64,000 nt of DNA. It comes from Bactericera cockerelli. Taxonomy: Eukaryota > Arthropoda > Insecta > Hemiptera > Triozidae. Below the pieces are notes generated by a model that saw only the letters and a list, made by a program, of their open reading frames with translations, made no database searches and had not been told where the DNA came from. The first letter of the stretch is position 1, and each line of letters starts with the position of its first letter. Positions 5,664 through 38,030 of this stretch are shown one piece after another. The stretch spans positions 8,514,771 to 8,578,770 of the forward strand of contig CM044958.1 in assembly GCA_024516035.1 (NCBI GenBank), read 5' to 3'. The translations under genes and the position numbers were made by a program.

Positions 5664-6038
5664 CTTTTTGATTTCCTTGAAAATTTACTCATGCTTATTA
5701 TTCTGCTATTTCCAGCAAGTGGATGGGCAAACAATTGTACCCATTTTTTTCTTGTTTGAAAATTTACTTTTTTTCTTTTTTTTTTTTGATTTCCTTGATT
5801 AAAGTTTACTCATGCGTATTATTCTGCAATTTCCAGCAAGTGGACAATTGTACCCATTTTTTTTTTTTTTTTTTTTGATTTCCTTGATTAAAGTTTACTC
5901 GTGCGTATTATTCTGCTATTTCCAGCAAGTATGGGCAAACAATTATACCCATTTTTTTTTTTTTTTTTTTTTTTGATTTCCTTGAAAGTACTCATGCGTA
6001 TTATTCTGTAATTTCCAGCAAGTGGATGGGGGGCAAAC
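5664..6038 (+). repeat. Acceptor array I, upstream part (4 copies)
   Basis: Four copies of a unit built from gatttccttg, aaatttactcatgcgtatta, ttctgcaatttccag, the first bases of the AdSS exon (CAAGTGGATGG), then caaacaattgtaccc and a T-tract of varying length. The matching genuine junction is at 9666. Acceptors lie near 5715, 5835, 5925 and 6020. The transposon at 6044 interrupts the array. Confidence 0.9.
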
Positions 6039-6043
6039 AAATG

Positions 6044-8464
6044 AAGGGGTGTCTAGAAGAACAACCTATGTTATTTTTGGTACTTTTCAGGAGAGAGGTT
6101 TAAAGTTGAAATTGCTGTTATTTTATTTCAATTTAGGTTTCTTGCCACATAGGTTGTTATTCCACTCAACCCAAAAAACACAAAGAAAAAAACATGCCAA
6201 GAAACTTACTTTTCTACTGGGAAGGTAAATTTGTGTAGAATCTCTTGTGACTGGGATTGCTCATGTAAGGCACCATACTCAATAAGTTTTTTCTTTTTTC
6301 GGCATCTACTGGAATGTGTCCTGGGTAAAGTTGAGGTAAATTTTCTTCTGTGATTTGTAGATTATCTCTTCTGAATATAACAAAGTTTTTCCAGGGCCTA
6401 ATAGTATTGTGTGACTCTCTAGCATAAACTGTAGTGATGTCATCGCTGGACATCTTAAACCAGACATATTTTGTAATCTTGAACTTGTTGTTATTGAGAT
6501 ATAACGCTTCAGTAACTTTGTCCATGTCTTTGAAGTCTTCCTGGTGCATTTCTGTCATTTGAAAAGGAGATTTTTCATTGGATTCACCTATCATGTGTTT
6601 GATTTGTGAAGGAACCATCAGTTTAGTGTGTTTTTTCTTCTTCTCAATAAGTGCAAAATCTCTATCGCAAGGTAAGAAGCTGTGTCCTGTGACCAGGAAT
6701 TTCTGATGTACCTCTGTGAAATAACCACATCGAATGAAGAACATACATAAAGATAAGACAGTTTTGTTATTGTTTTGTCCAACACATCTGTCGGACCAAA
6801 TTACTAGTTTCCTCTCTTCTGTTGGTTGGAGTTTCTTGTATTGAGTTGTAATGTAGTTCAACAAACAAGAGGAAACTTCTTTTGATCCTCTTTTTGCAAT
6901 AATCTGATGCCACAGGAACATGTGTGCTTGACTTTTTGTCATATTATGCACGGCAAAGTTATAGTTAGAATATTGCCTCTGATAGTACATGTCTGAATGA
7001 GTCAACATTGGAGTAAATATGACTTGCTCTAAGTCCATGCATAGCACGTTAAGATTAATATTCCTGCCATCTTCTGCAAGTGTTTTATAGGCTGCATCAG
7101 ATTGCATGTGGTGAATAGTGGTTTCCTGATGTATTGCTTCTCTTTCCTCATCTGTATTTGCCAAAACCATTTCACAGAATAATTTGTCACACTTTTTGCA
7201 GGTGTCAGAACGGGGTGTGCCAAATCTTAGATTGAAATCTTTAATAAACACCTTTCTGTATAAACTGTAAGAAACTTGATTATTAGGGTACTTGGTCAAA
7301 AATAGTTTATGCATCTTATTCACTGATAAATTATAGTTCAAGCACTTTTTAGCAGATTCACGTCTTGAGTAATGGTTTTCCATGAGAGGGAAGCTGTTGA
7401 TGTGTGCTTTCACTCGGTCTCTGTCTTCTTGGCGAATGGCAAGAGGACGATTAGCATGAGTACCTCTCTGGTCATGAGCAATAAAGTCACCAGTTTTCAT
7501 TTTGTTCTGTATGTTTCTAAGGCGCATGATAGTAATAGAGAAAGTATTCAAAAGAGTAGCACGACATACAGGTTGTCCATTGATTACATAGTCGTATCCA
7601 GCTAGTTTTAATGAGTTATTATCATACTTGCCAGGTCTCCTTTTCTTAACTTCTCTTATGGTCACATACTTTATGACAAACAAATTTTGTTCATTATAAT
7701 TTAGATTGTAGAAGTTATTGTGTAAACCATGCACAGTCTGCAGTGTAAGAGTTTCACAGCCTCTTTTGGAACAATGTTCTTCTCCACATCCTCTGGGATT
7801 AACAGGTGGATTCTTCCTTGGAACAAATACACCTTTTCCTCGTTTGTTAACATATGCCTGGCCAGAATTGCGTTTTTGTTGCAATTTTTTGTCTGCCCAG
7901 TTGGAAGTGTTCAAACTTCTCTTCTTCACACTGTTCAAGCACTCAATGTCTCCTTGAGTTAAACTCATGTTTACTAAGTACTTGAAACTTTACTTTACTA
8001 GTCACTGAAAACACTGGGAAAATTAAACATAAAAGTTACTGAACATTAAACTTATGCATATTGATTACTAGGTAACTAGTGTTTACAATTATGCATAGGT
8101 AACTAGTGTTTACAATTTAAATAGGTGTCTCAACAAAATTGTTATGCACCTAAAAATTGACACAATAAAATTAATTAGAATAAACGAAAATAATTTTATT
8201 GGCGGACGAAAATAAAACAAACGGCCGAGGGGTTAGACTATAGCCTTTTGCGCGCACGCACTAGCTGAAATTTTTGTAACATAGGTTGTTCTACATCAAA
8301 ATTTTCATTCCTTCTCCCACTCTTTTTTCCAAGTTTGACCGACATAAGCCGATTTTTTCCGAATTCTGACAACACTACGCTATGAAAGAGAACACATAGG
8401 TTGTTATTCTGCAAAAAAAAAAACTCGAAAAATTAACATAGGTTGTTCTTCTAGACAAGCCTTG
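6044..8464 (-). mobile_element. Complete 2.4-kb DNA transposon with terminal inverted repeats
   Basis: The ends are inverted repeats: 6050-6073 matches the complement of 8434-8457 perfectly, and similarity extends outward to 6044 and 8463 with two mismatches. A candidate target duplication aaatg lies at 6039-6043 and 8465-8469, with one unpaired base (8464), so its length of 4-5 bp is tentative. The dodecamer acataggttgtt (or its inverse) occurs five times, all near the ends: 6060-6071, 6147-6158, 8279-8290, 8394-8405 and 8436-8447. These look like transposase binding sites. The single gene is intact. It landed inside acceptor array I. Confidence 0.88.
6214..7968 (-). CDS. Transposase-like protein, 584 residues, intact
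   Basis: An uninterrupted frame starts at ATG 7968 and fills most of the transposon. The N-terminal third is basic, with a possible Cys/His cluster (RGCGEEHCSKRGC near residue 60). A second Cys motif, CKKCDKLFC, lies near residue 255. The C-terminal half has CMDLEQ (Asp312), WSDRCVGQNNN (Asp393) and PCDRDFALIEKK (Glu442). Their order and spacing fit an RNase-H-fold DDE/D core (inference). The SDxCxGQN and DRDFxxIE motifs recall large uncharacterised insect and plant proteins with a DUF7869-type domain. I cannot assign a named superfamily. Intact frame and ends suggest recent activity. Confidence 0.85.
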   Translation of the reverse strand: MSLTQGDIECLNSVKKRSLNTSNWADKKLQQKRNSGQAYVNKRGKGVFVPRKNPPVNPRGCGEEHCSKRGCETLTLQTVHGLHNNFYNLNYNEQNLFVIKYVTIREVKKRRPGKYDNNSLKLAGYDYVINGQPVCRATLLNTFSITIMRLRNIQNKMKTGDFIAHDQRGTHANRPLAIRQEDRDRVKAHINSFPLMENHYSRRESAKKCLNYNLSVNKMHKLFLTKYPNNQVSYSLYRKVFIKDFNLRFGTPRSDTCKKCDKLFCEMVLANTDEEREAIHQETTIHHMQSDAAYKTLAEDGRNINLNVLCMDLEQVIFTPMLTHSDMYYQRQYSNYNFAVHNMTKSQAHMFLWHQIIAKRGSKEVSSCLLNYITTQYKKLQPTEERKLVIWSDRCVGQNNNKTVLSLCMFFIRCGYFTEVHQKFLVTGHSFLPCDRDFALIEKKKKHTKLMVPSQIKHMIGESNEKSPFQMTEMHQEDFKDMDKVTEALYLNNNKFKITKYVWFKMSSDDITTVYARESHNTIRPWKNFVIFRRDNLQITEENLPQLYPGHIPVDAEKRKNLLSMVPYMSNPSHKRFYTNLPSQ

Positions 8465-8469
8465 AAATG

Positions 8470-8950
8470 TACCTACCCATTTTTTTTTTTTTTTTTTTTT
8501 TTTTTGATTTCCTTGATTAAAGTTTACTCGTGCGTATTATTCTGCTATTTCCAGCAAGTGGATGGGGGGCAAACAATTGTACCCATTTTTTTTTTTTTGA
8601 TTTTCTTGATTAAAATTTACTCATGCGTATTATTCTGCAATTTCCAGCAAGTGGACAATTGTACCCATTTTTTTTTTTTTTCTGATTTCCTTGAAAATTT
8701 ACTCATGCGTATTATTCTGCTATTTCCAGCAAGTGGACAAATATTGTACCCATTTGTTTTTTGTTTTTTGTTTTTTTTTTTTTGATTTCCTTGATTAAAA
8801 TTTACTCATGCGTATTACTCTGCTATTTCCAGCAAGTGGATGGGCAAACAATTGTACCCTTTTTTTTTACTTTTTTTTCCTTGATGAAAATTTACTCATG
8901 CGTATTATTCTACTATTTCCAGCAAGTGGATGGGGGGCAAACAATTGTAC

Positions 8951-8992
<42 letters not shown>

Positions 8993-9068
8993 ATTTCCTT
9001 GATTTAAATTTACTCATGCGTATTATTCTGCAATTTCCAGCAAGTGGATGGGGGGCAAACAATTGTAC

Positions 9069-9107
<39 letters not shown>

Positions 9108-9525
9108 ATTTCCTTGATTAAAATTTACTCATGCGTATTATTCTGCAATTTCCAGCAAGTGGATGGGCAAACAATTTTATTGTACCCATTTTTTTTTTTT
9201 TTTTTTTTTTGATTTCCTTGATTAAAATTTACTCATGCGTATTATTCTGCAATTTCCAGCAAGTGAATGGGGGGCCAACAATTGTACCCATTTTTTTTTT
9301 TTTTTTTTTTTTTGATTTCCTTGAAAATTTACTCATGCGTATTATTTTGCAATTTTTAGCAAGTGGATGGGCAAACAATTTATTGTACCCTTTTTTTTTT
9401 TTATTTCTTTTTTTTTGATTTCCTTGATTAAAACTTACTCATGCGTATTATTCTACAATTTCCAGCAAGTGACTGGGGGGCCAACAATTGTACCCATTTT
9501 TTTTTTTTTTCTTTTTTTCAACCTT
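8470..9525 (+). repeat. Acceptor array I, downstream part (10 copies)
   Basis: Ten more copies of the 5664 unit, with junctions near 8550, 8649, 8730, 8830, 8920, 9040, 9150, 9260, 9360 and 9470. Each has tttccag/CAAGTG; the copy near 9360 has tttttag. T-tracts between copies run from about 8 to 42 bases. Every copy diverges from the true exon after CAAGTGGATGG or sooner. No coding function. Confidence 0.92.
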
Positions 9526-9665
9526 ACCTATCTCGAGTTGAACAAATTTATGCGTCCAACTTTGAACAGCTGATGATCCCTCTTTCACAAAATCCTGGCT
9601 TCTGATTGGTTCAATTTATTTTCTTGATTAAAGTTTACTCATGCGTATTATTCTGCAATTTCCAG

Positions 9666-9814
9666 CAAGTGGATGGACTCCAAGAGGCGGAGAAGGGAAA
9701 GAAGTCCCTGGGAACCACCAAGAAAGGCATTGGCCCCGCCTACTCCTCCAAGGCCACGAGGAATGGTATCCGGGTGGCGGACCTCCTGGGGGACTTCGCT
9801 GTCTTCACGGAGAA
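9666..9814 (+). CDS. AdSS: AdSS exon: active-site signature
   Basis: The acceptor is attctgcaatttccag and the donor is cacggagaa/gtgagt. It encodes [20 protein letters not shown] then [20 protein letters not shown] and [21 protein letters not shown] is the family's active-site signature (G-I-G-P-x-Y-x2-K-x2-R); its lysine and arginine contact IMP. The exon is 149 nt, entering in phase 0 and leaving two bases that pair with the G at 15700. Fourteen decoy acceptors lie upstream, but only this copy continues into coding sequence. Confidence 0.96.
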
Positions 9815-9849
9815 GTGAGTTTACATTTACGTATGTTATTATGTATAAT

Positions 9850-10075
9850 AATAATAATAATAATAATACTCTTTAGTGGAAGGCATCCACCAGGCGAGGT
9901 TAATGCTCAAAGCATTTTCTACCACCTAACCTTCAGAGTCTTATTATTATGTGGTCGCAAACTCAAATTAATGAGGAAAAATTCATGCACTGGGTGGTAT
10001 TCGAACCGACGGATCCCTACACTACCTGGATTACCAGACTAGCGCGTTTACCACTTGACTACCAGTGCACTTTAG
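9850..10075 (-). repeat. T2 tRNA-like SINE, minus orientation, near full length
   Basis: Reading on the - strand: tgcactggtagtcaagtggt, B-box-like ggttcgaatacc, cagtgcatgaatttttcctc, the tgctttgagcattaacctcg segment and an (ATT)n tail at 9851-9870. Confidence 0.85.
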
Positions 10076-10849
10076 TAGTATAGTAAGTACCTGTGTAACT
10101 GTAAATAAATAATTAATACAAACCTGGTTACACTCACGGACTGATAATGAAAAAATAATAGGGGTCTACTCTGATCATTTTTTTGATATCTTGAACTTTT
10201 CGGACCTCGGCCCCAATTTACCGGTATTTTGGGGGGGACCCGCTTTAATTAACTTTTTTATTATTGACCCTAGAAGGTGGTTGTGAGATATCAAATCCAA
10301 AGGTTTTGAGGTGCTCATAACGAATTTGGCATTGATTTTTATCAATCTGTTACCGTTGAGTCACCAGTGGCGGAATTCGACTTCTTTTTGGTGGATAAGG
10401 AAAGTCGTGTGATGTTTACACTCGATTTTTATTAATCGAAAATGCATTATGTCGAAGTTATTGACTATTTGATATGCCGATAATGATTACCATGTGTCAT
10501 GTTTCTGTGAATAAAGAAATTTGAAGTTATGGTAGAGATGTAATTAAGTCAGTAAGATACATGAAGTGGCAACGTCTGGCAAATCATGGATTTCCAGCGG
10601 CACCTTTAATGCTTCTATCTTAACCGTCTGCTTTGATAAGAGTTCTTATCAGTCAATTTTTTTTATTAGTAAAAATTCCGCATGATGTCATTCTGAGAGT
10701 TCTCGAAATAAGATTTACAACTGCAATGCTTAGCAATTAATTAAATATGATCTATCAATCAGTGTGATTGTGGTTATTCGACTGTCCATATTTATGTCTC
10801 TTCCTTATCGGCTCGTGCGTCTAATTTATATGACTTTGTTATTATTATT
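10076..10849. other. Unassigned intron sequence
   Basis: AT-rich. I found no coding frame, tRNA-like head or terminal repeats in about 770 bases. Confidence 0.4.
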
Positions 10850-11050
10850 AAACATGTTTGATATCACAACTAATCAAATTCGCTTTAGTAAATCTACGCT
10901 GAAACCGGGGCTTGAACCAGGTTACAAGTCCGCCGCCTTGGGTTTGTGACCACGTAATAATACGACTCTCAGGGTTAGGTGGTATAAAATGCTTTGAGCA
11001 TTAACCTTGTCTGGTGGTTACCTTCCTCTAAAGTCTAAAGAGAATTATTA
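10850..11050. repeat. T3 (minus) and T2 tail (plus) fragments
   Basis: 10850-10945 is the 3' part of T3 on the - strand (gatatcacaactaatcaaat, aaatctacgctgaaaccggg). 10950-11050 is a T2 tail (tgctttgagcattaaccttg) ending in attattattt. Confidence 0.7.
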
Positions 11051-11149
11051 TTTGTCTCGCAATGTTGCTGAGCGTTTTACAACCTTTCATGCTCCACTCT
11101 TCCTTGAACCAAACGAGATGGAATCCCAGTCCCCTGCCAAATTTGAGAC

Positions 11150-11412
11150 AGTATGTATGTTTTTATTTCTGGTGAAGCATTACTAAGAGCCTCCTTCACT
11201 TTTCAAATTCTATTACATTAATTTCTTTTTACTCTGGTAATGCCGCCACTAGTCATTACTCATACAAGTAACTACTCATTTTTCCTCACGAGGTATAATT
11301 GGACCCGGAACATCTAAGTGCAGAGCAGAAAAATTCCTGCCCCGCTGGGGATCGAACCAAGGTCACCGTGCATGCAATGCCTAGCGCGCTAACTCACTCG
11401 GCAACGGTGACT
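11150..11412 (-). repeat. T4 tRNA-like SINE, minus orientation
   Basis: The - strand head is gtcaccgttgccgagtgagt, tagcgcgctaggcattgcat and B-box-like ggttcgatccc, followed by cacttagatgttccgggtcc and the body. Other copies are at 19205-19507 and 30850-31136. Internally deleted relative to 19205. Confidence 0.8.
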
Positions 11413-11478
11413 ACATCGAGACAAAATGTTGCGAACAGTATTGAGGTTTAATCTCATTTCATTCTAAACGGAGCATTA

Positions 11479-11748
11479 GCCAGCGTCGATGGCATGTTGA
11501 ATACACCGATTCCCTTCAGAACACCGAAGTTAAGCGACATCCAGCGAGGTTAAGACTTGGATGGGTGACCATTCAAATTCTAATTCTCGTGACGCTGGCT
11601 TTTCCCGGCCCCACTCAGGCTGGGTGAGGTCAATGTGAGTAGCAGGTTTGTGAGTTTCCTGCGAATGGAGGGTAAAACCCCCGTCGTGATATGACCATGG
11701 CAGTTGAAAGCGACGTTAAACCCCACTTAAAAAAAAAAAAAAAAAAAA
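11479..11748 (+). repeat. 5S rRNA-derived SINE, full length
   Basis: 11479-11600 (122 bases) is collinear with 5S rRNA: gccagcgtc at the start pairs with gacgctggc at the end (helix I), with the internal box-A-like accgaagttaagcgac near 11524 and the C-box-like cttggatgggtgacc near 11556. A 130-base body (ggccccactcaggctgggtg, gtagcaggtttgtgagtttc) and a poly(A) tail at 11729-11748 follow. Transcription by RNA polymerase III through the internal 5S promoter is inferred. Many decayed copies occur in the window. Confidence 0.88.
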
Positions 11749-12359: not shown

Positions 12360-12832
12360 TAGTAGAGCCCCTTTCAATAGGAAAGTTTAATTAAGGGCGG
12401 AATTAATAGACGTTTTTGTAATACCTCTGTGGCGCTAAATCACGAATTGCGTACTGTGTAAGATAGGGAAAACCGACGCTTAGCAATGACTCGAGTAATA
12501 GAACTTGTCTATAAATTTCGCCCTAAAAGTATCTCTACATTTTTATGGTCACGTGAAAATTAGAAAAATGAAAATAAAATTGAAAATCAACGCTCGATCA
12601 ATAATGTCAGAGATCAATGGACATATGTATATATTTTATTTATTTTTCTGTTGTTCATATTATAAATACTGTCAATTTTATATTTAATTTTTACCATTGT
12701 TTGTCTGTATATATGTTCTGCTAATAAAGAGTTTCTAAATAAATAAAATAAATAAATCAAATGTTAAAAAAGAAATTTTCAAAAATGTCAGAGAGTTCTC
12801 AGACAGAAAGTTGCGCTCAGTGCGAGCCCGCC
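12360..12832 (+). repeat. Retroelement 3' end and intron
   Basis: 12600-12760 ends with ctgctaataaagagtttcta and an (AAAT)n tail. The segment attgtttgtctgtatatatg (12697-12716) is the uninterrupted version of the sequence split by foldback element B at 19621. No coding region. Confidence 0.65.
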
Positions 12833-12853
12833 TTAACTTTCCACCGCCTCCCC
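12833..12853 (+). promoter_or_regulatory. Founder polypyrimidine tract of acceptor array II
   Basis: ttaactttccaccgcctccc occurs here once without exon sequence in front of it, followed by a T2 SINE. The same tract is the intronic half of every unit in the array at 13535-15699. This is probably the original intron end before tandem duplication. Confidence 0.7.
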
Positions 12854-13076: not shown

Positions 13077-13334
13077 GAATCTAGTTATTAGGGTTTTAAT
13101 TTTTTTACATACATATTCTTTTTATATACCGTTTCTCATGTCACTCTACATTGTAGTATGTATACATCTCTTTCTCTTTAGATTTCATTACCTCCAATAA
13201 TATTGTTTTTATAATTATAATGTATTCTTAATTTAGTTCATAGTGTGATATAATGTAATAGGTTGATTTATTTAACTGTATTGTATTACACTCAAATAAA
13301 ACAAATTCAATTCAATTATTATTATTGTCCTGCC
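13077..13334 (+). repeat. Retroelement 3' tail and acceptor
   Basis: The end attacactcaaataaaacaaa then ttcaattcaattattattat is like the insertion at 18733-18810. It runs into attgtcctgccag, an acceptor for the partial exon copy at 13335. Confidence 0.6.
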
Positions 13335-13428
13335 AGGTACCAGGCCCTGATAGACTCCCACCGCCGCATGTTCCCCGACCTGAGTGTGGACATGGAGCAG
13401 GAGATAGGCCGCTACAGGGACTACGCCT
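13335..13428 (+). pseudogene. Partial copy 1 of the AdSS exon at 15700
   Basis: It matches the first 90 or so bases of the true exon (YQALIDSHRRMFPDLSVDME through YRDYA) behind an acceptor-like cctgccag. It breaks off at gactacgcc and meets taattccgcc and a T2 tail, giving a stop directly after the break. It lacks the second half of the exon and a donor in register. Confidence 0.9.
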
Positions 13429-14218
13429 ATTAATTCCGCCCTAAGACTTTAAGGGTTAGGTGGTAGAAAATGCTTTAAGCATTAACCTCGCCTGGTGGTT
13501 ACCTTCCACTAAAGAGTGTAATTATTATTATTATTGTCCTCCCCTAGGTACCAGGCCCTGATAGACTTAACTTTCCACCTCCTCCCCCAGGTACCAGGCC
13601 CTGATAGACTTAACTTTCCACCTCCTCCCTCCTCCCCTAGGTACCAGGCCCTGATAGACTTAACTTTCCACCTCCTCCCCCAGGTACCAGGCCCTGATAG
13701 ACTTAACTTTCCACCTCCTCCTCCTCCCCTAGGTACCAGGCCCTGATAGACTTAACTTTCCACCTCCTCCCCCAGGTACCAGGCCCTGATAGACTTAACT
13801 TTCCACCTCCTCCCTCCTCCCCCAGGTACCAGGCCCTGATAGACTTAACTTTCCACCTCCTCCCTCAGGTACCAGGCCCTGATAGACTTAACTTTCCACC
13901 TCCTCCCTCAGGTACCAGGCCCTGATAGACTTAACTTCCCACCTCCTCCCCCAGGTACCAGGCCCTGATAGACTTAACTTTCCACCTCCTCCCTCAGGTA
14001 CCAGGCCCTGATAGACTTAACTTTCCACCTCCTCCCTCAGGTACCAGGCCCTGATAGACTTAACTTTCCACCTCCTCCCTCAGGTACCAGGCCCTGATAG
14101 ACTTAACTTTCCACCTCCTCCCCCAGGTACCAGGCCCTGATAGACTTAACTTTCCACCTCCTCCCTCCTCCCTAGGTACCAGGCCCTGATTGACTTAACT
14201 TTCCACCTCCTCCCCCAG

Positions 14219-14345
14219 GTACCAGGCCCTGATAGACTCCCACCGCCGCATGTTCCCCGACCTGAGCGTGGACATGGAGCAGGAGATAGGCCGCTACAGG
14301 GACTACGCCTGGTGGTTACCTTCCACTAAAGAGTGTTATTATTAC
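14219..14345 (+). pseudogene. Partial copy 2 of the AdSS exon joined to a T2 tail
   Basis: About 90 bases of the exon, identical to the true copy apart from isolated changes, fuse at gactacgc to ctggtggttaccttccacta and an ATT tail, then array units resume. The same fusion recurs at 14827, so the block was duplicated after the fusion formed. Confidence 0.9.
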
Positions 14346-14826
14346 TGTCCCCTCAGGTACCAGGCCCTGATAGAGTTAACTTTCCACCTCCTCCCCCAGG
14401 TACCAGGCCCTGATAGACTTAACTTCCCACCTCTCCCCCAGGTACCAGGCCCTGATAGACTTAACTTCCCACCTCCTCCCCCAGGTACCAGGCCCTGATA
14501 GACTTAACTTCCCACCTCCTCCCCCAGGTACCAGGCCCTGATAGACTTAACTTTCCACCTCCTCCCCTAGGTACCAGGCCCTGATAGACTTAACTTCCCA
14601 CCTCCTCCCCTAGGTACCAGGCCCTGATAGACTTAACTTCCCACCTCCTCCCCCAGGTACCAGGCCCTGATAGACTTAACTTCCCACCTCCTCCCCCAGG
14701 TACCAGGCCCTGATAGACTTAACTTTCCCCCTCCTCCCCTAGGTACCAGGCCCTGATAGACTTAACTTTCCTCCTCCTCCCCTAGGTACCAGGCCCTGAT
14801 AGACTTAACTTTCCACCTCCTCCCCA

Positions 14827-14965
14827 GGTACCAGGCCCTGATAGACTCCCACCGCCGCATGTTCCCCGACCTGAGCGTGGACATGGAGCAGGAGATAGGC
14901 CGCTACAGGGACTACGCTTGGTGGTTACCTTCCACTAAAGAGTGTTATTATTATTATTGTCCTGG
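14827..14965 (+). pseudogene. Partial copy 3 of the AdSS exon joined to a T2 tail
   Basis: Same exon-T2 fusion as copy 2 (junction near 14918, here gactacgcttggtgg). It is followed by attgtcctggcag and further array units. Confidence 0.9.
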
Positions 14966-15699
14966 CAGGTACCAGGCCCTGATAGACTTAACTTTCCACC
15001 GCCTCCCCTAGGTACCAGGCCCTGATAGACTTAACTTTCCACCGCCTCCCCTAGGTACCAGGCCCTGATAGACTTAACTTTCCTCCTCCTCCCCTAGGTA
15101 CCAGGCCCTGATAGACTTAACTTTCCACCTCCTCCCCCAGGTACCAGGCCCTGATAGACTTAACTTTCCACCTCCTCCCCCAGGTACCAGGCCCTGATAG
15201 ACTTAACTTTCCTCCTCCTCCCCTAGGTACCAGGCCCTGATAGACTTAACTTTCCACCGCCTCCCCTAGGTACCAGGCCCTGATAGACTTAACTTTCCAC
15301 CGCCTCCCCTAGGTACCAGGCCCTGATAGACTTAACTTTCCTCCTCCTCCCCTAGGTACCAGGCCCTGATAGACTTAACTTTCCACCTCCTCCCCCAGGT
15401 ACCAGGCCCTGATAGACTTAACTTTCCACCTCCTCCCCCAGGTACCAGGCCCTGATAGACTTAACTTTCCTCCTCCTCCCCTAGGTACCAGGCCCTGATA
15501 GACTTAACTTTCCTCCTCCTCCCCCAGGTACCAGGCCCTGATAGACTTAACTTTCCACCTCCTCCCCTAGGTACCAGGCCCTGATAGACTTAACTTTCCT
15601 CCTCCTCCCCCAGGTACCAGGCCCTGATAGACTTAACTTTCCTCCTCCTCCCCCAGGTACCAGGCCCTGATAGACTTAACTTTCCACCTCCTCCCCCAG

Positions 15700-15872
15700 G
15701 TACCAGGCCCTGATAGACTCCCACCGCCGCATGTTCCCCGACCTGAGTGTGGACATGGAGCAGGAGATAGGCCGCTACAGGGACTACGCGGAGCAGTTGC
15801 GGCCTCTGGTGGTGGAGACTGTGTCCTATCTGCACACCGCGCTGCGGGCCGGGAAGCAAATCCTGGTGGAAG
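15700..15872 (+). CDS. AdSS: AdSS exon: YQALIDSHRR to ILVEG
   Basis: The acceptor is cctcctcccccag and the donor is ctggtggaag/gtcagt. It encodes YQALIDSHRRMFPDLSVDME, then QEIGRYRDYAEQLRPLVVET and VSYLHTALRAGKQILVE. It is 173 nt; phases fit both neighbours. This is the only one of four exon-start copies that continues past YRDYA. The helical region here precedes the conserved [12 protein letters not shown] segment. Splicing must bypass about 46 upstream acceptor look-alikes and choose the last one. Confidence 0.96.
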
Positions 15873-18537: not shown

Positions 18538-18725
18538 GTGCCAACGCCGCCATGCTGGACATAGACTTCGGCACCTACCCCTACGTGACCTCCTCCAACT
18601 GCAGCATCGGGGGCGTGTGTACGGGCCTGGGCCTGCCCCCCGCCACCATAGGACACGTGGTGGGCGTGGTCAAGGCGTACACTACCCGCGTGGGGGACGG
18701 GCCTTTCCCCACGGAACAGCTGAAT
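18538..18725 (+). CDS. AdSS: AdSS exon: [20 protein letters not shown] segment
   Basis: The acceptor is ctcctccag and the donor is cagctgaat/gtaagt. It encodes [40 protein letters not shown] and [20 protein letters not shown] then QLN. The segment contains the conserved DFGTYPxVTSSN loop and TRVGxGPFPTE, which form part of the IMP and aspartate sites. It is 188 nt, entering in phase 1 and leaving in phase 0. Its donor region is partly copied at 19510. Confidence 0.96.
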
Positions 18726-18732: not shown

Positions 18733-18810
18733 TTTTATATTTCTATTATCTCTTTAATGTGAAACACATACTTTTGTATTGAATTTTTTCACAATAAATA
18801 AATTGAATTG
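18733..18810 (+). mobile_element. Short retroelement tail inserted beside a splice donor
   Basis: About 78 bases ending aataaataaattgaattg, flanked by aagta at 18728-18732 and 18811-18815. It splits the native intron start gtaagta/tgagcagggc just seven bases after the exon. The donor hexamer is intact. Confidence 0.65.
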
Positions 18811-19204
18811 AAGTATGAGCAGGGCTGTCTGGCTGTGGGGTGCGAAGACCAGTGTCTCGCTAAAAGACTAAAAGCAGAGAACGAACTACTCAACCCGGGG
18901 TTAAATGGCAGAGAATGCCTAAGACATTAACTTCGCCCCGGATTACAATACATTGTACATTTAAATTTAAATATTTTTTTTCTTCTATATCTTATTTTGT
19001 AAATACCTATAGTAATTTTTTTTTTATATTTGTTAATAATTTATTGTTGTATGTATTGTATAAAAAATAAAGTGTATAAAAAAAAAAAAAATAGCGTGCG
19101 CCGTGCTATACTAAATGCTGTACTATTTATCTAAAAGAAATATCTAAATAATATTTCTTTATCCAGAATCCAAATATAAATTCAAACGTACATTACCCTC
19201 TACA
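18811..19204 (+). repeat. Native intron start, then retroelement tail
   Basis: 18816-18925 (gagcagggctgtctggctgt, gaagaccagtgtctcgct, agcagagaacgaact) is repeated at 19526-19575 and 21418-21440. 18926-19092 ends with aaaaaataaagtgtat and poly(A). 19093-19204 is unassigned. Confidence 0.6.
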
Positions 19205-19509: not shown

Positions 19510-19580
19510 CAGCTTAATGTAAGCATAAGCAGGGCTGTCTGGCTGTGGGGAACGAAGACCAGTGTCTCGCTAGAAGACTA
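19510..19580 (+). repeat. Duplicated donor junction of the 18538 exon
   Basis: cagcttaatgtaagcataag followed by cagggctgtctggctgtggg repeats the last exon bases (CAGCTGAAT), the donor gtaag and the first part of the intron at 18717-18850, with minor changes. It lacks the insertion at 18733. Confidence 0.8.
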
Positions 19581-21415: not shown

Positions 21416-21756
21416 ATAAACAGAGAACGAACTAGTCAACCCTAACAAGCCAGGCTAGCTTACAGTTTCCCAAGAGTTTAATGGCTTATAAAGAAAAAGC
21501 CCAAGTGCTTATGTAATATGTAATAATGTATATTTATTTTATTTTTTCTTTACAATTTTTGTGGCTCTCTCCCTAAGGAATTCTTCTAAGGAGTTTTTGT
21601 GATTTGTGTTGATCCCACATAGAATTATGTGCTCCAGAACGAACCAATTTTTGATCTAAAGTTGAATAGAGCCCATCAGTTCCCCAGCTGTAGCCAAGAC
21701 GGCTGCAATAACAACATCAGTAGGGCTTTGTTTAGACTCTGAGCGCAAGTTCCTAG
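21416..21756. other. Native intron sequence
   Basis: 21418-21440 (taaacagagaacgaactagt) continues the native intron cut at 19580. The rest holds no recognised feature. Confidence 0.5.
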
Positions 21757-22343
21757 TATTCCAAGTGATTCTGTTGCTTTCTCTCCCCATGAAATAGGAG
21801 ACAAGCTGCAGAGCATCGGGAATAAAGTGCAAGTTTCTGAGTATTTCCTAGTATTCCAAGTGATTCTGTTGCTTTCTCTCCCCAGGAAATAGGAGATAAG
21901 CTGCAGAGCATCGGGAATAAAGTGCAAGTTTCTGAGTATTTCCTAGTATTCCAAGTGATTCTGTTGCTTTCTCTCCCCAGGAAATAGGAGACAAGCTGCA
22001 GAACATCGGGAATGAAGTGCAAGTGTCTTAGTATTTATATATAATAATATAATAACTCTTTATTGACAAGAATAATATTGACAAAGGGCCTGATTATTGT
22101 CTGAGGCAATCTCTGCCATCAAACCCAGTATTCCCTAGTATTCCAAGTGATTCTGTTGCTTTCTCTCCCCAGGAAATAGGAGACAAGCTGCAGAGCATCG
22201 GGAATAAAGTACAAGTTTCTGATTTTTTTATATATAATAATATAATAACTCTTTATTGACAAGAATAATATTGACAAAGGGCGTGATTATTGCCTGATGC
22301 AATCTCTGCCATCAAACCCAGTATTTCCTAGTATTCCAAGTGA
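21757..22343 (+). repeat. Acceptor array III, upstream part
   Basis: Copies of a 95-bp unit: 62 bp of intron end (aaagtgcaagtttctgagta, tttcctagtattccaagtga, ttctgttgctttctctccccag) and 33 bp of exon start (GAAATAGGAGACAAGCTGCA, GAGCATCGGGAAT). Exon-start copies begin at 21791, 21886, 21981 and 22173. The first has cccat in place of cccag. Between 22033 and 22330 two RT-tail fragments (ctttattgacaagaataata) were duplicated together with the unit, making a block of about 193 bp. The array is then cut by the retrotransposon at 22344. Confidence 0.93.
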
Positions 22344-29607: not shown

Positions 29608-30745
29608 TTCATGCTTAAATTTGGTAAGACTTGTAGAGACTTAAGGACTTTTCCTCACTTTTTTAGTACCATTTTTGATTTGGTATTATTTTTTATTTTG
29701 TAATGTACTTTTAATGTACAAGAAATATATAAAAAAAAAAAAAAAAAAAAAAAATGTTACCTGTTCTTTGTATTTTTAACTATAGATATGATTTGTAATC
29801 ACTATAAATATTATACTGAAAAGGAATTATAGTCCTCACCATAAGTAATAGTCCTCTCAAAGGTATATGTATATTACATTTTTGTATATTGAACCCTTTA
29901 GGACATAATGTAGGTTCATGTATGTATAAACCTCTTTCAACTGTAACATATTACTATAAATATTATACTGAAAAAGAATTATAGTCCTCACCATAAGTTA
30001 TAGTCCTCTCAAAATAAGGTATATGTATATTATATTACATTTTGTACATGTAATCCTTTAAGACATGATGTTTGTAGGTTCATGTATGTATAAACCTCTT
30101 TCAACTGTAACATATTACTATAAATATTGTACTGTAAAAGAATTATAGTCCTCACCATAAGTTATAGTCCTCTAAAAAAAAATAAGGTATATGTATATTA
30201 CATTTTGTACATTGAATCTTTTTAGGACATGATGTAGGTTCATGTATGTATAAACCTCTTTCAACTGTAACATATATATTACTATATAGCTTCTCTAGTA
30301 CAGAGGGAACAAAACATGCCATATCAGGAATTAGGAAGTAAAAAAAAAAAAAAAAAAAAAAAAATAGAGAGAAAATAAAACAGAAAAGAAATTAAATTGA
30401 AACTGTAAATTTACTTTTATTACAAGATACATTTCAAATTTTGTAGGTACCTAGGTAGGTATGTGTTTCCATCTCAAATATCTAGATTTTTACATTGGAA
30501 AAATAGGTAGATGGATGGAAATAAGGAGGAAATTATCTATTCCTTTTTTTCCCTTAAAATTTAATTATTATTTTTTTTTCTTTCTTTCTCTAAATTTCCT
30601 GAGTTGTAAATTTTGTATTTTCTATACATAAAAAAAAAACATCCATATTTGTAAATTTGTATCCATGTATGTATGATTTCCTTGTAAAAATTATAAATAA
30701 AACTACAACTTAAGTTGTGAATATGTTTAAAAAAAAAAAAAAAAA
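29608..30745 (+). repeat. 3' region of retrotransposon 1 with tandem repeats
   Basis: Poly(A)-like run at 29731-29754, then three tandem units of about 152-165 bp starting at 29801, 29953 and 30117 (actataaatattatactgaa, ttatagtcctcaccataagt, ggttcatgtatgtataaacc), a second A-run at 30341-30363 and the terminal A-tail. Two internal A-runs may record earlier priming events or composite 3' ends. Confidence 0.8.
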
Positions 30746-30845
30746 GTATTCCAAGTGATTCTGTTGCTTTCTCTCCCCAGGAAATAGGAGACAAGCTGCA
30801 GAGCATCGGGAATAAAGTGCAAGTTTCTGAGTATTTCCTAGTAAT
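30746..30845 (+). repeat. Acceptor array III, copy after the retrotransposon
   Basis: The unit resumes within the target duplication (gtattccaagtga) and includes a complete acceptor and the 33-base exon start at 30781. Confidence 0.93.
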
Positions 30846-31136: not shown

Positions 31137-31189
31137 ACTGCATTTTTTTTAAAATATGAGTATTTCACAGCCGTTTTTTATTTCGTAGC

Positions 31190-31329
31190 CTAGTATTCCA
31201 AGTGATTCTGTTGCTTTCTCTCCCCAGGAAATAGGAGACAAGCTGCAGAGCATCGGGAATAAAGTGCAAGTTTCTGAGTATTTCCTAGTATTCCAAGTGA
31301 TTCTATTGCTTTCTCTCCCCAGGAAATAG
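31190..31329 (+). repeat. Acceptor array III, last two copies
   Basis: Exon-start copies at 31228 (33 bases) and 31323 (only gaaatag, then the SINE). The copy at 31323 is probably the original exon start, cut by the SINE. Confidence 0.92.
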
Positions 31330-31472
31330 ACCGACCTCAGTAGCTTGATCGATAAGGCAGTGGACTAGTAACCTGGAGGTCGGTGGTTCAAGTCCCGGTT
31401 TCAGCGTAGATTTAGTAAAGCGAGTTTGAGTAGTTGTGATATCACGAATGTGATTAACACAAATATGATAAC
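31330..31472 (+). repeat. T3 tRNA-like SINE with 19-bp target duplication
   Basis: It is flanked by perfect copies of ttctctccccaggaaatag at 31311-31329 and 31473-31491. The head has cgacctcagtagcttgatcg and the B-box ggttcaagtcc; it ends gattaacacaaatatgataac. It was inserted seven bases into an AdSS exon. Confidence 0.95.
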
Positions 31473-31484
31473 TTCTCTCCCCAG

Positions 31485-31609
31485 GAAATAGGAGACAAGC
31501 TGCAGAGCATCGGGAATGAAGTGGGCGTGACCACCAAGAGGAAGAGGAGGTGTGGCTGGCTGGACATTCCTCTGCTCAAGTACACGTCCATGGTGAACGG
31601 CTACACCAA
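31485..31609 (+). CDS. AdSS: AdSS exon: [20 protein letters not shown] segment
   Basis: The acceptor ttctctccccag lies in the right-hand target duplication of the T3 SINE; the donor is ctacaccaa/gtgagt. It encodes [40 protein letters not shown] then [14 protein letters not shown] is the family's guanine- and IMP-binding motif. It is 125 nt and phases fit. Its first 33 bases are the ones copied in array III; the true exon continues with GAAGTGGGCGTGACC while copies turn to aaagtgcaagtttc. Confidence 0.96.
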
Positions 31610-32117: not shown

Positions 32118-32735
32118 TCGGTACAAATGAGGAGCATACGTGCAAAAATGAATATCTCCAAAAATACAAAAAATGGAATTAAGAATTGATTCTAACAGTT
32201 TATACTCAGGTATGAGTCTTTATCTACGACCCTGCAATTCGCAAGCTAACATATTGCATTTTAATAACACCATTGTTAAAACCTCAGTAGCTTGATCGAT
32301 AAGGCGGCGGACATGTAACCTGGATTTCGATGTTTGAAGTACCGATTTCAGCGTAGATTTAATTAAGCTAGTTTGAAAAGCTATGATATTTTTATGAAAG
32401 TGATTAAAAAGATTTTTAAATCGAAATTGTAAATTTTTAAATGGTAAAGCGAGTTTGAGTAGTTGTGATATCACGAAAGTGATTAACACAAATATGATAA
32501 CTTTCAACTTTTTTTCTTACTGAGCGAAATTAAAAAAATATATAATAAACGACCTTACTCGAACACATCCCACAGTAATTGCGCTTTCAAAATGACCGTA
32601 TCAATCAAATCTGAACAGATCCGTACTTGTTTCTTTATTGTTTTACTTTTCATAATATCAGTTTTTCCTTCATACTGAAAATTTATATTTCCGGAGATGT
32701 TAATTTTGCACGTATGCTCCTCAAATGTAGTACCT
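32118..32735. mobile_element. MITE-like inverted-repeat element with nested T3 SINE
   Basis: gaggagcatacgtgcaaaa (32129-32147) is repeated in inverse at 32705-32723, and weaker complementarity extends on both sides (ggtacaaatg / catttgtagtacc type). It contains a T3-like SINE (32276-32505; ctcagtagcttgatcgataa, gagtttgagtagttgtgata). No coding capacity. Exact ends and target duplication are not clear. Confidence 0.7.
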
Positions 32736-32764
32736 AAGGCTGAAAAATCCCTTCCCAGATCAAC

Positions 32765-35455
32765 AATGAATGGAGGGCCAAGGAACTTAGTTCTTGGAAC
32801 ATTAATCTGCCTGAATTACAATGCATTTGGGTCGAGACAAAAATTAACTATACAACATTGTTAATATGTTTAGTTTATCTTCCCCGTCCAGTGTCATCTG
32901 AAACTATGGAGCGTTTTCAAAGTATGCTTACGCAACATAACATAACAGAATATGATAAAAACCTATTGATCATCGGTGATTTTAACTGTTCTGGTCTTTC
33001 GATGACACTGCATAAAGCAAATGGCGTATACCACCCTAGAGATGACATCTTAATAGATACTATTTCCTTTTTTAATCTTCAATCTCAGAACATGGTACAG
33101 AATAGTATGGGCCGTTCCTTGGATATTGTGCTTTATAAACACAACCCCAATCCCAATGTAAAAAGAAGTGTCTTTGTCGAAGTCCAGAGAGGGGAACCGA
33201 TGGTTCGTGAGCATCCTCTTCATCCGACTTTGGAATTAAACTTTTATTATAAGAAAAATAAAAATCAAAATATATCTAAACCAATGAAACCTATATCAAA
33301 TAATTCTCTTCCTAAAACAACAAAGAAACCAAGATACAGAAAAAGACAAAAACAACCTGAAAGCCCTTTTGGTAATCATTTATTTCTTAGCAAAGCCTAT
33401 AACTTCCAAAACGTTGATATAACCACCTTGCAACAGCAGCTTAATAACCTAGACTTGTACCACGTTTTGGAAACGGATGACTCTGAGATTGCTTTGAAAC
33501 AGTTGTATGATACATTATATACCTTTTTAGATCACAATGTACCTACTAAGAAAACCAGAGCCATCCGTTTTAATAATAAAAAATATCCATCGTGGTGGAG
33601 CCGCAACACAATAATCCTCATGAAAGAAAAAGAGAAATTGCGGAAATGTAAAATTATTGATCATTCATACCGATTAAAGAAAAAACAAGTTAAAAACTTA
33701 ATAAAATCAGATTTTAAAATTTATATTAAAGAACTACAAATGAAACTCAAATCAAAAAGTAAAAAAGAGTTTTGGAAGTTCATTAAGTCCAAAAATAAAA
33801 GTTTGGGTAAAGTTGAATACAAGCTGGATGATGTGATTCTCTCTGAACCGGAAGTCATTTGCAATGAGTTTGCGAAATACTTTAAATCTGTTTATAGTGA
33901 AGCGCCTGATGCTTATAATGTAGATCTAGATAGCCTATCATATCATATTGAACTGCCCATGTTCTCTATCTCAGAAACAGATGTAAACTTTGCCATTCAA
34001 TCATTACCTGAAAAATCTCCTGGAATGGATAGCTTTCCCCCAATATTATTAAAAAACTATCCATCTTTATTGATAAAATGCTTAACTCATATTTTTAACA
34101 TCTCTCTAGAACATAAACAATTTCCTGATCTACTGAAATACACCATTGTTACTCCAATACCAAAAAAATCAAACTCAAAAGATATAACCAACTTTAGGCC
34201 AATATCTTGTCTTACAGTTTTCTCTAAATTATTTGAGTCTTGTATTTTTTCCAAAATAGCACCTTTCATCTATGCTAAAAATTCAAACCAACAACATGGA
34301 TTTATAGAGAAAAGATCAACTGTTAGTAATTTGGTTGTTTTCCATGACTTTGTGGCGGGGGAACTGAACGATGGGCGTGGTCAGGTTGACGTCATTTATA
34401 CCGATATATTAAAAGCTTTCGACAAGCTGTCTTTTGACGTTCTCCTGAACAAGCTACTATCGTTTGGTTTTCACCCAAACTTTGTGACTTTCATTTCAAC
34501 TTATCTCAGAGATAGAGAGCATCGAGTACGTTTTCAAAACACCTTTTCAAAACCCTACCACCCAACATCATCTGTGATTCAGGGTTCAAAGCTATCTAGC
34601 CTTTTCTTTGCAATCGTCATAGACGGCATAGGCGCTGCTATAAAATATTCTAACCACCTACTTTTTGCAGACGACTTTAAATTATACAGACACATTGATA
34701 ACAGTGGTGATTGCCAGTTGTTGCAGGAGGACCTGGATTCAGTTAGTACTTGGTTAGCCAATATCAAATTACAATTTCACCCAAATAAATGTGAGGTCAT
34801 GTCCATAACAAGAAAAAGAGCACTTTTACATCATGAATACACAATAAATAATGTCCATCTAAATAGAGTTACAGTGAAAAAAGACCTAGGCGTTACCTTT
34901 CAACAAAATCTCAAATTTGATCAGCACACAAATAATATTACCTCTGCTGCTAATAATACCCTAGGTCTTGTACTTCGTCATTCTAAATTCTTTAACGATT
35001 TTGACACAATTGTGACACTCTACACGGCCCTTGTTAGAAGTAAACTCGAGTATGCTGCCATTATATGGGCTCCAAAACACCAATGCCACATAAAAAAACT
35101 CGAGCAAATTCAAGCAAGGTTCGTGAGAGTGTTGTTTTTGAAATATAATGGTTTCTATCCTGCCTATCCAAATGCTATCTCATATTCAGACTTACTGGAA
35201 CAACTTTGTATAGGCAGGTTAGAAAGAAGACGAATGTATTACCAACTAATTTTCATACATGGCCTCAGTAATAACACCATTATATGTCCAGGGCTAATTG
35301 AGAAAATACTGATTAAAGTGCCTAACTTACAACTGTCACTGAGAGAACGACCACTAACTCAGTATTTTCATATACCAAGAAACTATTCTCCTGTGTACCT
35401 GGAATCACCACTCATCTCCTCTCTAATAAATTTAATAATTATTGTAATAGTGTAA
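32765..35455 (+). pseudogene. ORF2 of retrotransposon 3, N-terminally truncated but open
   Basis: Open for about 890 residues. The readable part begins upstream of the first ATG (32858) with [21 protein letters not shown]. Endonuclease: [12 protein letters not shown] and SLDIVLYKH. Polymerase: [82 protein letters not shown] and the catalytic [11 protein letters not shown] (near 34660). Typical C-terminal [20 protein letters not shown] follows. No internal stop or frameshift, so the polymerase may be functional though the element cannot make ORF1. Confidence 0.88.
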
Positions 35456-35620
35456 ATTTAGATCTCGATCTCACATTGGAACAATTTAAACAAGGATGTA
35501 GGGAGGGCCTGGATATAGGTCTTTAGTCTGTATGCAGTGTCCCTCAAACCTGTTTACGTAATTGCAGCATTATTGTTGCGTGTAAACAGTGATGAAAAAA
35601 AAAAAAAGAAAAAAAACAAG
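32765..35620 (+). mobile_element. Non-LTR retrotransposon 3, 5' truncated
   Basis: It starts within the endonuclease domain and ends with an A-rich tail at 35594-35620. Related to the - strand element at 56581-61537 in ORF2 sequence. Truncation at the 5' end is the normal result of incomplete target-primed reverse transcription. Confidence 0.85.
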
Positions 35621-36196
35621 AGCATGTTTAGCCCAGATCCGATCTGGCGGGTGTAAACACCTGAATAACTACAAAGCCAGAATAGATCCATTACTATACA
35701 TACACAAAACTCAAGAAACACTCCAACACAACCAAGACAACCACACATACAACACAAGAAATGCCAAACAAATCACAGTCCCTAAACATAAAACATCATT
35801 CTTTGAAAGAACATCTAAATACAATGGCATAAAATACTACAACAACTTAACAACAGAAACAAAAACACTAAGTCTACCCCAATTCAAAAGAAAAATAACT
35901 GAACATATCATAAAAATAACACCATACAAATTCAAAGACCTAGAGAACATTACATACTAATCATACCACATATACCAAACACATCCATGTACACACACCC
36001 ACACCTCCACATATAACACTTACTTAAATCACACTCATGCGCCACAGTCATCAAATAAGAATCATTATTATTATTATTATTTTTTTTTTTTTTCTTTGTC
36101 ATAAGTTAGTCCATAAGTTAGATAGGGTGACAATGTTTTCTACATTTTTCAATGTCTAATAAACAATAAATATACTATACTATACTATACTATCTG
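35621..36196 (+). pseudogene. Retrotransposon C-terminal fragment with (TATAC)n end
   Basis: A frame to 35960 reads NHTYNTRNAKQITVPKHKTS and YNGIKYYNNLTTETKTLSLP, the usual C-terminal tail of non-LTR ORF2 proteins. It is followed by an untranslated region and ctatactatactatactatc at 36176-36195, a microsatellite-type 3' end. Confidence 0.75.
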
Positions 36197-36330
36197 ATCT
36201 ATGTCCCTCATGCCAAACAAAAACACATGATGTACACCATGACCAGTCTGGACCCATCATCCCTCTGGACAAACCTCACTCAAGCAGCTGCTCTTCTCGA
36301 CCTAGGAACAGTGATGTAGGCGCAAACGTT
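36197..36330 (+). pseudogene. Second retrotransposon C-terminal fragment
   Basis: DLCPSCQTKTHDVHH and, after a frame change, SLWTNLTQAAALLDLGTVM and stop. The CPxC..H..H pattern followed by LWxNPxxxAxxL is the common C-terminus of RNase H-bearing non-LTR polyproteins. Only about 130 bases remain. Confidence 0.65.
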
Positions 36331-37119
36331 AACAACAACATCTGTTCTGACCTTATGCCCTTAGATTTTTACTTTTTAATTTTTGACAGAATGCTCTTTG
36401 AATATAACTTGGAAATAAAACAGAAAGAGGGCTTTGGTAGGCAAGGCAATTCCATTATTATTACCTGGTTGTAGGGTTTTCAGTGAAACCCTTACAATTA
36501 GAAACACTACAACCTAATTAGAGTTATTGTGATCAGTCGATTCTATTTGGTTTTAACTTACTGATTTAATAATAATAATAATAAATGCCCGCAGCACGGG
36601 TGTATATTTACGAGCCTAGCTCTATTTACAAACAGAAAACAAATAACATGAATATATCACATAAGAAAGGTTCAAAAACAATCATATCACAGTTACATAA
36701 AAAAAAGTTAAAAAAAAAAAAAAAAAAAAATCAAGTGAAGTTAAAACCAGCACTGACATTTGCTGCCCTCATCATCCTATTTAATGGAGCATTGTACATG
36801 TAGTTTGTGGCACATGTTGCAACGTGAAATGTGTTGCTCCTCCTAAGTCTCCTATGGCAGCCTAATGTAACAGAGGCAAGCAGCTCGGGACAATCCACGG
36901 AACCCATTACAAGATGATGCAGGAACCAGCACGGATGCGGCGCTCCTTAAGCCCTTCAACATTAACCTGGCACAGTGGAAAACGGAACTTGAAATACCAG
37001 AGAAATCTCTTCTGTACTCTTCCCAGCATATGGTCGTATATATGGTAGTGAGGTGACCATATAGGGCATGCGTATTCTAAAAGAGAACGGACAAGAGATA
37101 CATACAGAAGTCTGAATCA
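36331..37119. other. Intron, mostly unassigned
   Basis: A short inverted repeat at about 36473-36520 (ggttgtagggttttcagtga against actacaacc). An A-run at 36715-36730. 36770-37110 has scattered coding-like composition but no consistent frame. Confidence 0.4.
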
Positions 37120-37345
37120 GTGGGAGATAGACAGTCTCGACGGGGGTTTTACCTCCATTCGCTGGGAATCGTACCGGCTACCCACATTAACCTCACCCAG
37201 CCTGGGTTGGGCCGGAAATGCCAGCCTCTCGTGTTCGGAAAAAAACAGGATTTTCTGTTAGAAAAATCAGCACCAACCGGGAATCGAACTCAGGATCTCT
37301 GGACCACGGGCAGTAGTCTCAACTGTTACGCCACGGAGTCTAGCT
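37120..37345 (-). repeat. T5 tRNA-like SINE, minus orientation
   Basis: Head on the - strand: ggcgtaacagttgagactac, tgcccgtggtccagagatcc and B-box-like gagttcgattccc, then a body ending in the 5S-SINE-like caggctgggtgaggttaatg and gaatggaggtaaaacccccg. Better preserved than the copy at 5123. Confidence 0.82.
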
Positions 37346-37792
37346 AGCCATTCCATACAGTCAAACAATGTCTATTAATGCTGTGCTACCCACTAGATTT
37401 GTAATATAATAACATAAAAAAAACCTTCCTATGTTATTTATTTTATTTATTTAATAAATGACAAGTAAATGGTTCAAATATATATAACAATGACAGTTTA
37501 CATAATTCATAATATTTTTAATTGAACTTATTCTAGTTTCTTTTGGTTGTCGTCATCTCACACTAAGGGCCACACCTATGAAGTATGGTCCTTGTGTCGT
37601 GGGATGCAGCCTTGTTCTAGTTTCTGTGTTAATTATAATTACTATCCTTTACATTTCTATTTCTTTTTGTATAAAATAATTTCTTTTTGCACAAAATAAT
37701 CATTATTTCCATTAACATCAACATATTTTCCCACAAGTCAACATAAATATGCCTCTCGACTGACCAATAACTCGTTTCCCCTCTGCCCTCAG
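37346..37792. repeat. Intron with retroelement tail fragment
   Basis: 37438-37620 has ttatttaataaatgacaagt and cacactaagggccacaccta, probably a - strand retroelement end. It then runs to the acceptor cccctctgccctcag. Confidence 0.5.
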
Positions 37793-37919
37793 ACTCTGCA
37801 TCACCAAGCTGGATATTCTCGACAGCTTCGACGAGATCAAGATAGGCGTGGCTTACAAACGTGACGGCCACGCCCTCTCCTACTTCCCCTCCAACTCCTC
37901 CGAGCTGGCCAAAGTTGAG
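37793..37919 (+). CDS. AdSS: AdSS exon: [20 protein letters not shown] segment
   Basis: The acceptor is ctctgccctcag and the donor is gccaaagttgag/gtaatg. It encodes [20 protein letters not shown] and [20 protein letters not shown] then VE. TKLDILD is strongly conserved (nucleotide-binding domain; the aspartate in this region contacts the guanine base). It is 127 nt and phases fit. Three further donor copies follow, all in frame. Confidence 0.95.
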
Positions 37920-38030
37920 GTAATGACAGTAAAAAATATCAAAGTTGAGGTAATAACAGTAAAAAATATCAAAGTTGAGGTAATAACAGTAAAAAATATC
38001 AAAGTTGAGGTAATAACAGGAAGAGACTGC
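37911..38030 (+). repeat. Donor array: four in-frame copies of a splice donor
   Basis: The 30-bp unit aaagttgaggtaat(g/a)acag then taaaaaatatc is present four times (37911, 37941, 37971, 38001). The first nine bases are exon end (KVE) and the rest intron start. Each copy has the same gagGTAAT donor. Reading through adds [10 protein letters not shown] and then [10 protein letters not shown] twice, with no stop before the fourth donor. Confidence 0.93.

Follow-up and report, generated by a model that had tools for sequence, protein, structure and literature searches.

Tandem copies of splice junctions in AdSS and other genes of the psyllid Bactericera cockerelli

The AdSS gene and its repeated junctions

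The window analyzed here is a stretch of 64,000 nucleotides of the sap-feeding psyllid Bactericera cockerelli (assembly GCA_024516035.1, contig CM044958.1, hereafter C4), located at C4:8514771-8578770 in an assembly of 565 Mb and 1032 contigs that we searched. The gene it contains is AdSS (adenylosuccinate synthetase), several splice junctions of which are accompanied by extra local copies of themselves; positions below are those of the window unless a contig or locus is named. The seven exons joined from 9666 to 40299 form an open frame that is 91% identical, without gaps, to a predicted protein from Cyamophila willieti, another psyllid; the next matches stand at 75%. A pseudogene is not favoured given this frame and this identity, and given that the frameshift of exon 3340 is not found in a second copy of the gene (see below); since that exon is in frame there, the frameshift in the window is either an allele or an assembly slip.

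A preliminary description of this DNA had counted 14, about 46 and 7 extra copies of the acceptors at 9666, 15700 and 31485, and 1 and 3 of the donors after 18725 and 37919. These counts hold, one of the seven at 31485 being the target-site duplication of an element resembling a short interspersed element (SINE), and so does the absence of detectable copies from the four exons said to have none (Table 1). The extra copies of acceptor 9666 lie at 5716, 5837, 5926, 6019, 8555, 8648, 8730, 8833, 8923, 9041, 9156, 9260, 9360 and 9466; a 30-mer test also gives 14, a stricter 24-mer test 13, and the unit is made of about 11 exon bases, a T-run and intron. At acceptor 15700, there are 43 short units, mostly of 43 bp (20 exon and 23 intron bases), and three pieces consisting of the first 90 exon bases and then a SINE-like tail; blocks of 43-bp units alternate with these exon starts, three of which precede the real exon, resulting in a higher-order repeat. 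A lone intron half of the 43-bp unit further upstream (12832..12853) probably corresponds to the ancestral acceptor's left flank, interrupted by a SINE-like insertion. Acceptor 31485 has six full extra copies and one truncated at about 31320, whereas the single copy of donor 18725 is clear only after allowing for the insertion at 18734-18812 and is missed by the strict 30-mer and 24-mer tests.

Splice signals (AG or GT) are kept in nearly all the printed copies of 9666, 15700, 31485 and 37919, with the exception of the copy before 21791, where CAT replaces CAG. The copies of donor 37919 are all in frame and stop-free, and their use would add 10, 20 or 30 residues; the upstream acceptor copies, if used, would lead to a stop in 16 of the 17 tested and to a frameshift in the remaining one, so they are presumably ignored. 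The exon part of a unit varies from 6 to 96 bases without any cut at a constant distance from the splice site, and nothing therefore indicates that the DNA is cut there. The units had been described as a few exon bases plus the adjoining intron; they do cross the junctions, but the 15700 family also includes the 90-bp exon pieces.

Within the 43-bp units of 13548-15699, the exon part carries two changes in 940 bases, both of them single, and five intron columns carry shared variants, so that the exon part looks unusually uniform. No gradient that would speak for polar growth of this array toward the exon is evident.

Table 1. AdSS exons, junction arrays and associated features of the window
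Feature	Position	Strand	Remarks
AdSS exon	1516..1618	+	No junction copies detected (30-mer and 24-mer tests)
AdSS exon	3340..3469	+	No junction copies detected (same tests); one-base frameshift, otherwise intact; in frame in second copy
9666 array, upstream part	5668..6042	+	4 copies
Insertion dividing 9666 array	6043..8473		About 2.4 kb; not in second gene copy
9666 array, downstream part	8474..9518	+	10 copies, units mostly 82-118 bp
AdSS exon	9666..9814	+	Real acceptor 9666
Lone intron half of 43-bp unit	12832..12853	+	
Acceptor-15700 array	13337..15699 (higher-order repeat 13327-15700)	+	Higher-order repeat
AdSS exon	15700..15872	+	Real acceptor 15700
AdSS exon	18538..18725	+	Real donor after 18725
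Insertion within real donor copy	18734..18812		Apparently AAGTAT duplications on both sides
Diverged copy of donor 18725	19510..19580	+	9 exon and about 62 intron bases (about 71)
31485 family, distal part	21750..22343	+	Units of 95 bp with about 39 exon bases
31485 family, single copy	30745..30843	+	Lies between insertions
31485-family copy ending in truncated acceptor (about 31320)	31189..31328	+	Truncated acceptor is 5' target-site duplication of SINE-like element
SINE-like element	31329..31473	+	Target-site duplication of about 17 bases across acceptor
AdSS exon	31485..31609	+	Real acceptor 31485
AdSS exon	37793..37919	+	Real donor after 37919
Donor-37919 array	37910..38019	+	30-bp unit (10 exon bases), 3 extra donors
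AdSS exon	38746..38866	+	No junction copies detected (30-mer and 24-mer tests)
Last AdSS coding exon	40250..40299	+	No junction copies detected (30-mer and 24-mer tests)
Plain-intron array	559..796		93-bp unit
Plain-intron array	29801..30275		164-bp unit

A second copy of the gene and the instability of the arrays

A second, partial and rearranged copy of AdSS, running from exon 1 to exon 18538, lies at 468-509 kb of the same contig (C4:468001-509645; loci L009-L013); 100 consecutive N occupy 509646-509745, and the long blocks are about 92-99% identical to the window. As several other genes are also found twice in the assembly, with many of these pairs on a single chromosome at distances of some hundred kilobases, we take this copy to be probably the other haplotype, retained in the assembly (a haplotig); a partial duplication is possible instead, as the two copies are 8 Mb apart and the last exons are lacking from the second.

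The arrays differ between the two copies. In the second one, the 9666 array contains a repeated block of about 914 bp and is devoid of the 2.4-kb insertion, which is thus probably younger than the array that it splits; the short units of the 15700 array number 15, versus 43 in the window, the 31485 family is represented by one unit in the part examined, and no copy of donor 18725 is detected. These differing copy numbers and the missing insertion indicate that the arrays are unstable and are not the product of one assembly error, in agreement with the earlier argument that the copies are split by insertions and distinguished by point changes, three of the families being present in the second copy with other copy numbers.

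Junction copies in other genes and their excess over chance

The repeats had been described from AdSS; a comparison with other genes shows that they are not confined to it. Seven TCP-1 loci were picked by coordinates from 68 TCP-1 family matches before their sequence was viewed, and their junctions were modelled from reading frame and splice signals; before counting, one wrongly modelled donor was substituted and three sites entered manually. A second sample consisted of 12 stretches of 10 kb each, evenly spaced on C4 between 1.0 and 7.6 Mb, in which 17 exons were used, 16 of them found via coding score; 15 of the 17 were scanned against Pfam, 12 with a match and three without. A junction was scored as having a private local copy with a strict 24-mer test (8 exon and 16 intron bases, up to 3 mismatches allowed). 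Such copies were found at 8 of 73 junctions in the TCP-1 loci, at 4 of 18 in AdSS and at 6 of 31 in the evenly spaced sample. Two junctions of a single exon of L028 (one with copies) had been added to this sample because of their array; without them it gives 5 of 29, and the total outside AdSS is 13 of 102 modelled junctions. Among them, the donor of a trypsin-type exon (Pfam match) is repeated 28 further times, and a CPSF2-type gene (Pfam match; L019, minus strand) has three amplified donors, at oriented positions 1884, 4399 and 6227, with 29, 1 and 5 further copies in the strict test and units of 27, 72 and 63 bp, each a multiple of three. Outside AdSS, the same test finds copies at 10 of 49 donors versus 3 of 53 acceptors (P = 0.036), a bias that is gone once AdSS is included (P = 0.19).

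One has to ask how many such junctions would be expected anyway, as arrays with a period of at least 10 called by Tandem Repeats Finder (TRF) cover 10.7% of the 120 kb of evenly spaced stretches, and in a genome so rich in minisatellites some overlap between arrays and junctions is expected. Compared with intronic windows outside the junction families, junctions are enriched in private local copies: 4/17 versus 22/939 in the window (binomial P = 6e-4), with backgrounds of 56/3220 for AdSS (P = 2e-4) and 280/6540 for TCP-1 (P = 0.013). One array, however, fills many windows although it was founded only once; we therefore counted families and consider a founder-based test to be fairer. In this test, the number of repeat families deriving from a junction is compared with that obtained when the founding unit is placed randomly outside pure coding sequence. 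A junction was counted once, additional arrays of it being dropped, and the junction-touching arrays at L029 7025, L030 5258 and 6956, and L031 7547 (oriented positions) were not counted as junction-derived, being uncalled, exact-edge or endowed with too few exon bases. Junction-derived families amounted to 4 of 22 in AdSS (0.26 expected, about 15-fold, P = 9e-5), 6 of 39 in TCP-1 (1.50 expected, about 4-fold, P = 0.0027) and 5 of 32 in the evenly spaced stretches (0.85 expected, about 6-fold, P = 0.0012). Pooling gives 11 of 71 versus 2.35 expected without AdSS (P = 1.2e-5; 1.9e-5 when the largest instead of the best-scoring period is used for each array) and 15 of 93 versus 2.62 when it is included (P = 1.7e-8). 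A more stringent count, limited to contiguous arrays that physically cross a junction in AdSS and TCP-1, yields 6 of 62 versus 1.35 expected (P = 0.0017). In our sample, founding units thus fall across exon edges about fivefold more often than expected under random placement.

Some points have to be set against this. When intronic windows belonging to the junction families are kept, the enrichment is no longer significant, whether in the window (4/17 versus 142/1131 non-dispersed intronic windows, P = 0.16), in AdSS (307/3615, P = 0.06) or in TCP-1 (586/6989, P = 0.27); the idea implicit in the preliminary description, that units cross splice sites beyond chance, is borne out in spirit by the founder test, also in genes other than AdSS, and not by the per-window test against all introns. 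The junctions are predicted models of our own rather than RNA-supported ones, and the arrays of the evenly spaced stretches had been viewed before the exons there were listed. The 51 non-junction arrays of AdSS and TCP-1 are not GC-rich (median 0.31 versus 0.32-0.40 in introns), which argues against a simple account in which GC-rich exons are hot, and we rejected GC-rich exons as general array hotspots on this ground. Intron-only arrays are at most mildly enriched near exons, with 11 of 48 within 100 bp versus 5.15 expected (P = 0.007, a value that includes three junction arrays missed by the gene models). Considering the variable exon share, the lack of GC-richness and this mild enrichment, the favoured feature would be the overlap with exon sequence itself. 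Splice-like motifs were also considered as array promoters and gave no signal: they are not raised in 44 arrays without a tie to a known junction, in a test of low power in which known junction arrays are not distinct either. Finally, a dispersed transposon carrying the 31485 unit was rejected, as the 13 genome-wide matches listed for this unit all lie inside the two AdSS copies (in a search that skips very common words), and the same candidate was rejected at other junctions within the sampled sequence for those passing the dispersal filter.

Arrays of plain intron do exist and are common, contrary to what had been stated for this gene: besides the two listed in Table 1, a 45-bp array is found in intron 1 of AdSS, upstream of the window. 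Its 45-46-bp unit (about 11.5-11.9 kb upstream of the window) also forms an array at L027 6859-7272, and some plain-intron arrays are hence part of dispersed families. Related units of about 165-168 bp (CTCCCTAAAACGACACCGTTTAACAGCA...) occur at 53342-54398 and at L022 1974-2444, two distant places of one chromosome, and apparently represent a dispersed tandem element. At the end of the window, an array of about 82 pyrimidine-rich 39-bp units occupies 63716-64000 and runs on into L016, past the window.

Origin of the arrays and their known relatives

The arrays are very probably minisatellites spanning splice junctions, of the kind called “mirages” in amphioxus (lancelets), and common in the psyllid genome as sampled here. 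Their history may be outlined as follows. A local tandem duplication would first have copied some 20-180 bases overlapping a junction, as the anatomy of the units suggests; the array would then expand or shrink in blocks, such as those that differ between the two AdSS copies, presumably through unequal exchange or slippage. Retroelements and other insertions enter the array and divide it, as seen in the window, and the whole may be tolerated if the exon-proximal site can still yield a normal mRNA while the extra copies are removed with the intron. As for the boundary excess, we would tentatively propose, as a weakly held view, that the rate of local duplication is raised over exons and their edges and that purely exonic products are purged by selection, while junction-spanning ones are tolerated.

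One could instead imagine a mutational process aimed at the exon edges as such, possibly linked with transcription or splicing (through R-loops, stalled spliceosomes or template switching), which would copy junctions genome-wide, about one in eight, and supply raw material for new introns and exons. Template switching of this kind and microhomology-mediated duplication had been put forward in the preliminary description as candidate causes. The roughly fivefold excess and the preference for donors outside AdSS would fit, but the variable exon share with no fixed cut at the junction, the loss of the donor bias once AdSS is added and the unraised splice-like motifs of the 44 non-junction arrays (a comparison of low power) make us doubt it. 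Pure chance in a minisatellite-rich genome, where only exon-touching arrays would have caught the eye, is unlikely: the abundance of arrays, many of them confined to introns, and the per-window tests against all introns speak for it, and the excess of founders in all three sets speaks against it.

It is more improbable still that retroelement target-site duplications seed the copies, the acceptor being duplicated by the insertion and the array growing from there. The duplication around the SINE-like element at 31329-31473 does span an acceptor, accounting for one 31485 copy, and the 90-bp exon pieces in the 15700 array are all followed by a SINE-like tail; on the other hand, no such element was noticed in the printed 9666, 37919, trypsin-type and CPSF2-type units, for which no systematic search was made, and the large insertion of the 9666 array probably postdates it, being missing from the second copy. 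A selected function, with spare splice sites acting as decoys or splicing regulators, seems highly unlikely, as the stops and the frameshift entailed by the upstream acceptor copies and the greatly differing copy numbers between the AdSS copies outweigh the in-frame, stop-free donor copies of 37919. Assembly artefacts can practically be set aside: tandem arrays are error-prone, and the frameshift of exon 3340 in only one of the gene copies may be such an error, but point changes and distinct insertions tell the repeated units apart, and the second AdSS copy and other genes show the same type of structure.

The psyllid junction arrays are thus real, more general than one gene, and of a described but little-known kind. 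The earlier reports consulted concern a handful of amphioxus genes, whereas about one junction in eight is affected in this insect sample, some fivefold over random founding. The boundary excess and its cause are, in our opinion, the interesting part of the finding, as a poorly understood type of mutation becomes testable, and so do the handling by splice-site choice of dozens of consecutive near-identical sites and the possibility that exon edges are hotspots of tandem duplication supplying new introns. Gene prediction and splice-site models may also be misled in such genomes.

The preliminary description was aware of no described process amplifying exon-intron junctions; the structure itself is nevertheless known from the amphioxus mirages. 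According to the available text of two reports (PMC3087553, PMC3902484), these tandem repeats of exon-intron boundaries occur in Adh3, the globins BflGb6 and BflGb9, TnC and PGBD5; 5' as well as 3' boundaries are concerned, many units include splice signals, and the units measure 10 to about 160 bases. The same text indicates that their copy number varies between haplotypes (6 and 3 units in BflGb6), that the Adh3 and globin mirages do not interfere with regular splicing, and that the Adh3 mirage shows somatic instability. Judging from sequence, the psyllid arrays share the four mirage traits that were tested: their tandem units span exon-intron boundaries; they occur at both boundary types (three acceptors and two donors in AdSS, ten donors and three acceptors elsewhere in the strict test); they keep splice signals; and their length differs between gene copies, the second copy being probably the other haplotype. 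They differ from mirages in belonging to another phylum, in having been sampled in several genes with a random-founder control, in the size of the largest arrays (46 and 28-29 extra copies, as compared with the 3 and 6 units of BflGb6 in the available text), and in being split by insertions and, at 15700, organized in a higher-order repeat. A literature search of partial coverage found no report of mirages outside cephalochordates.

Two other systems come close. In the Rogers model, as set out in the available part of PMC2891723, introns are gained via tandem duplication of AGGT-containing segments. There, as in the psyllid, tandem duplication copies splice signals within a gene; in contrast to the new intron that the available part describes as arising from exon sequence, existing junctions are multiplied in the psyllid and no new intron is seen in its DNA. 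Cases in Drosophila and potato are reportedly cited for intron gain by tandem duplication. Internal gene duplication as a source of introns is the subject of surveys cited within the available text of PMC3087553. As in the psyllid, the duplications lie inside genes. Surveys of internal gene or exon duplication reportedly concern whole exons or single duplications, and not arrays of partial junctions such as those of the psyllid.

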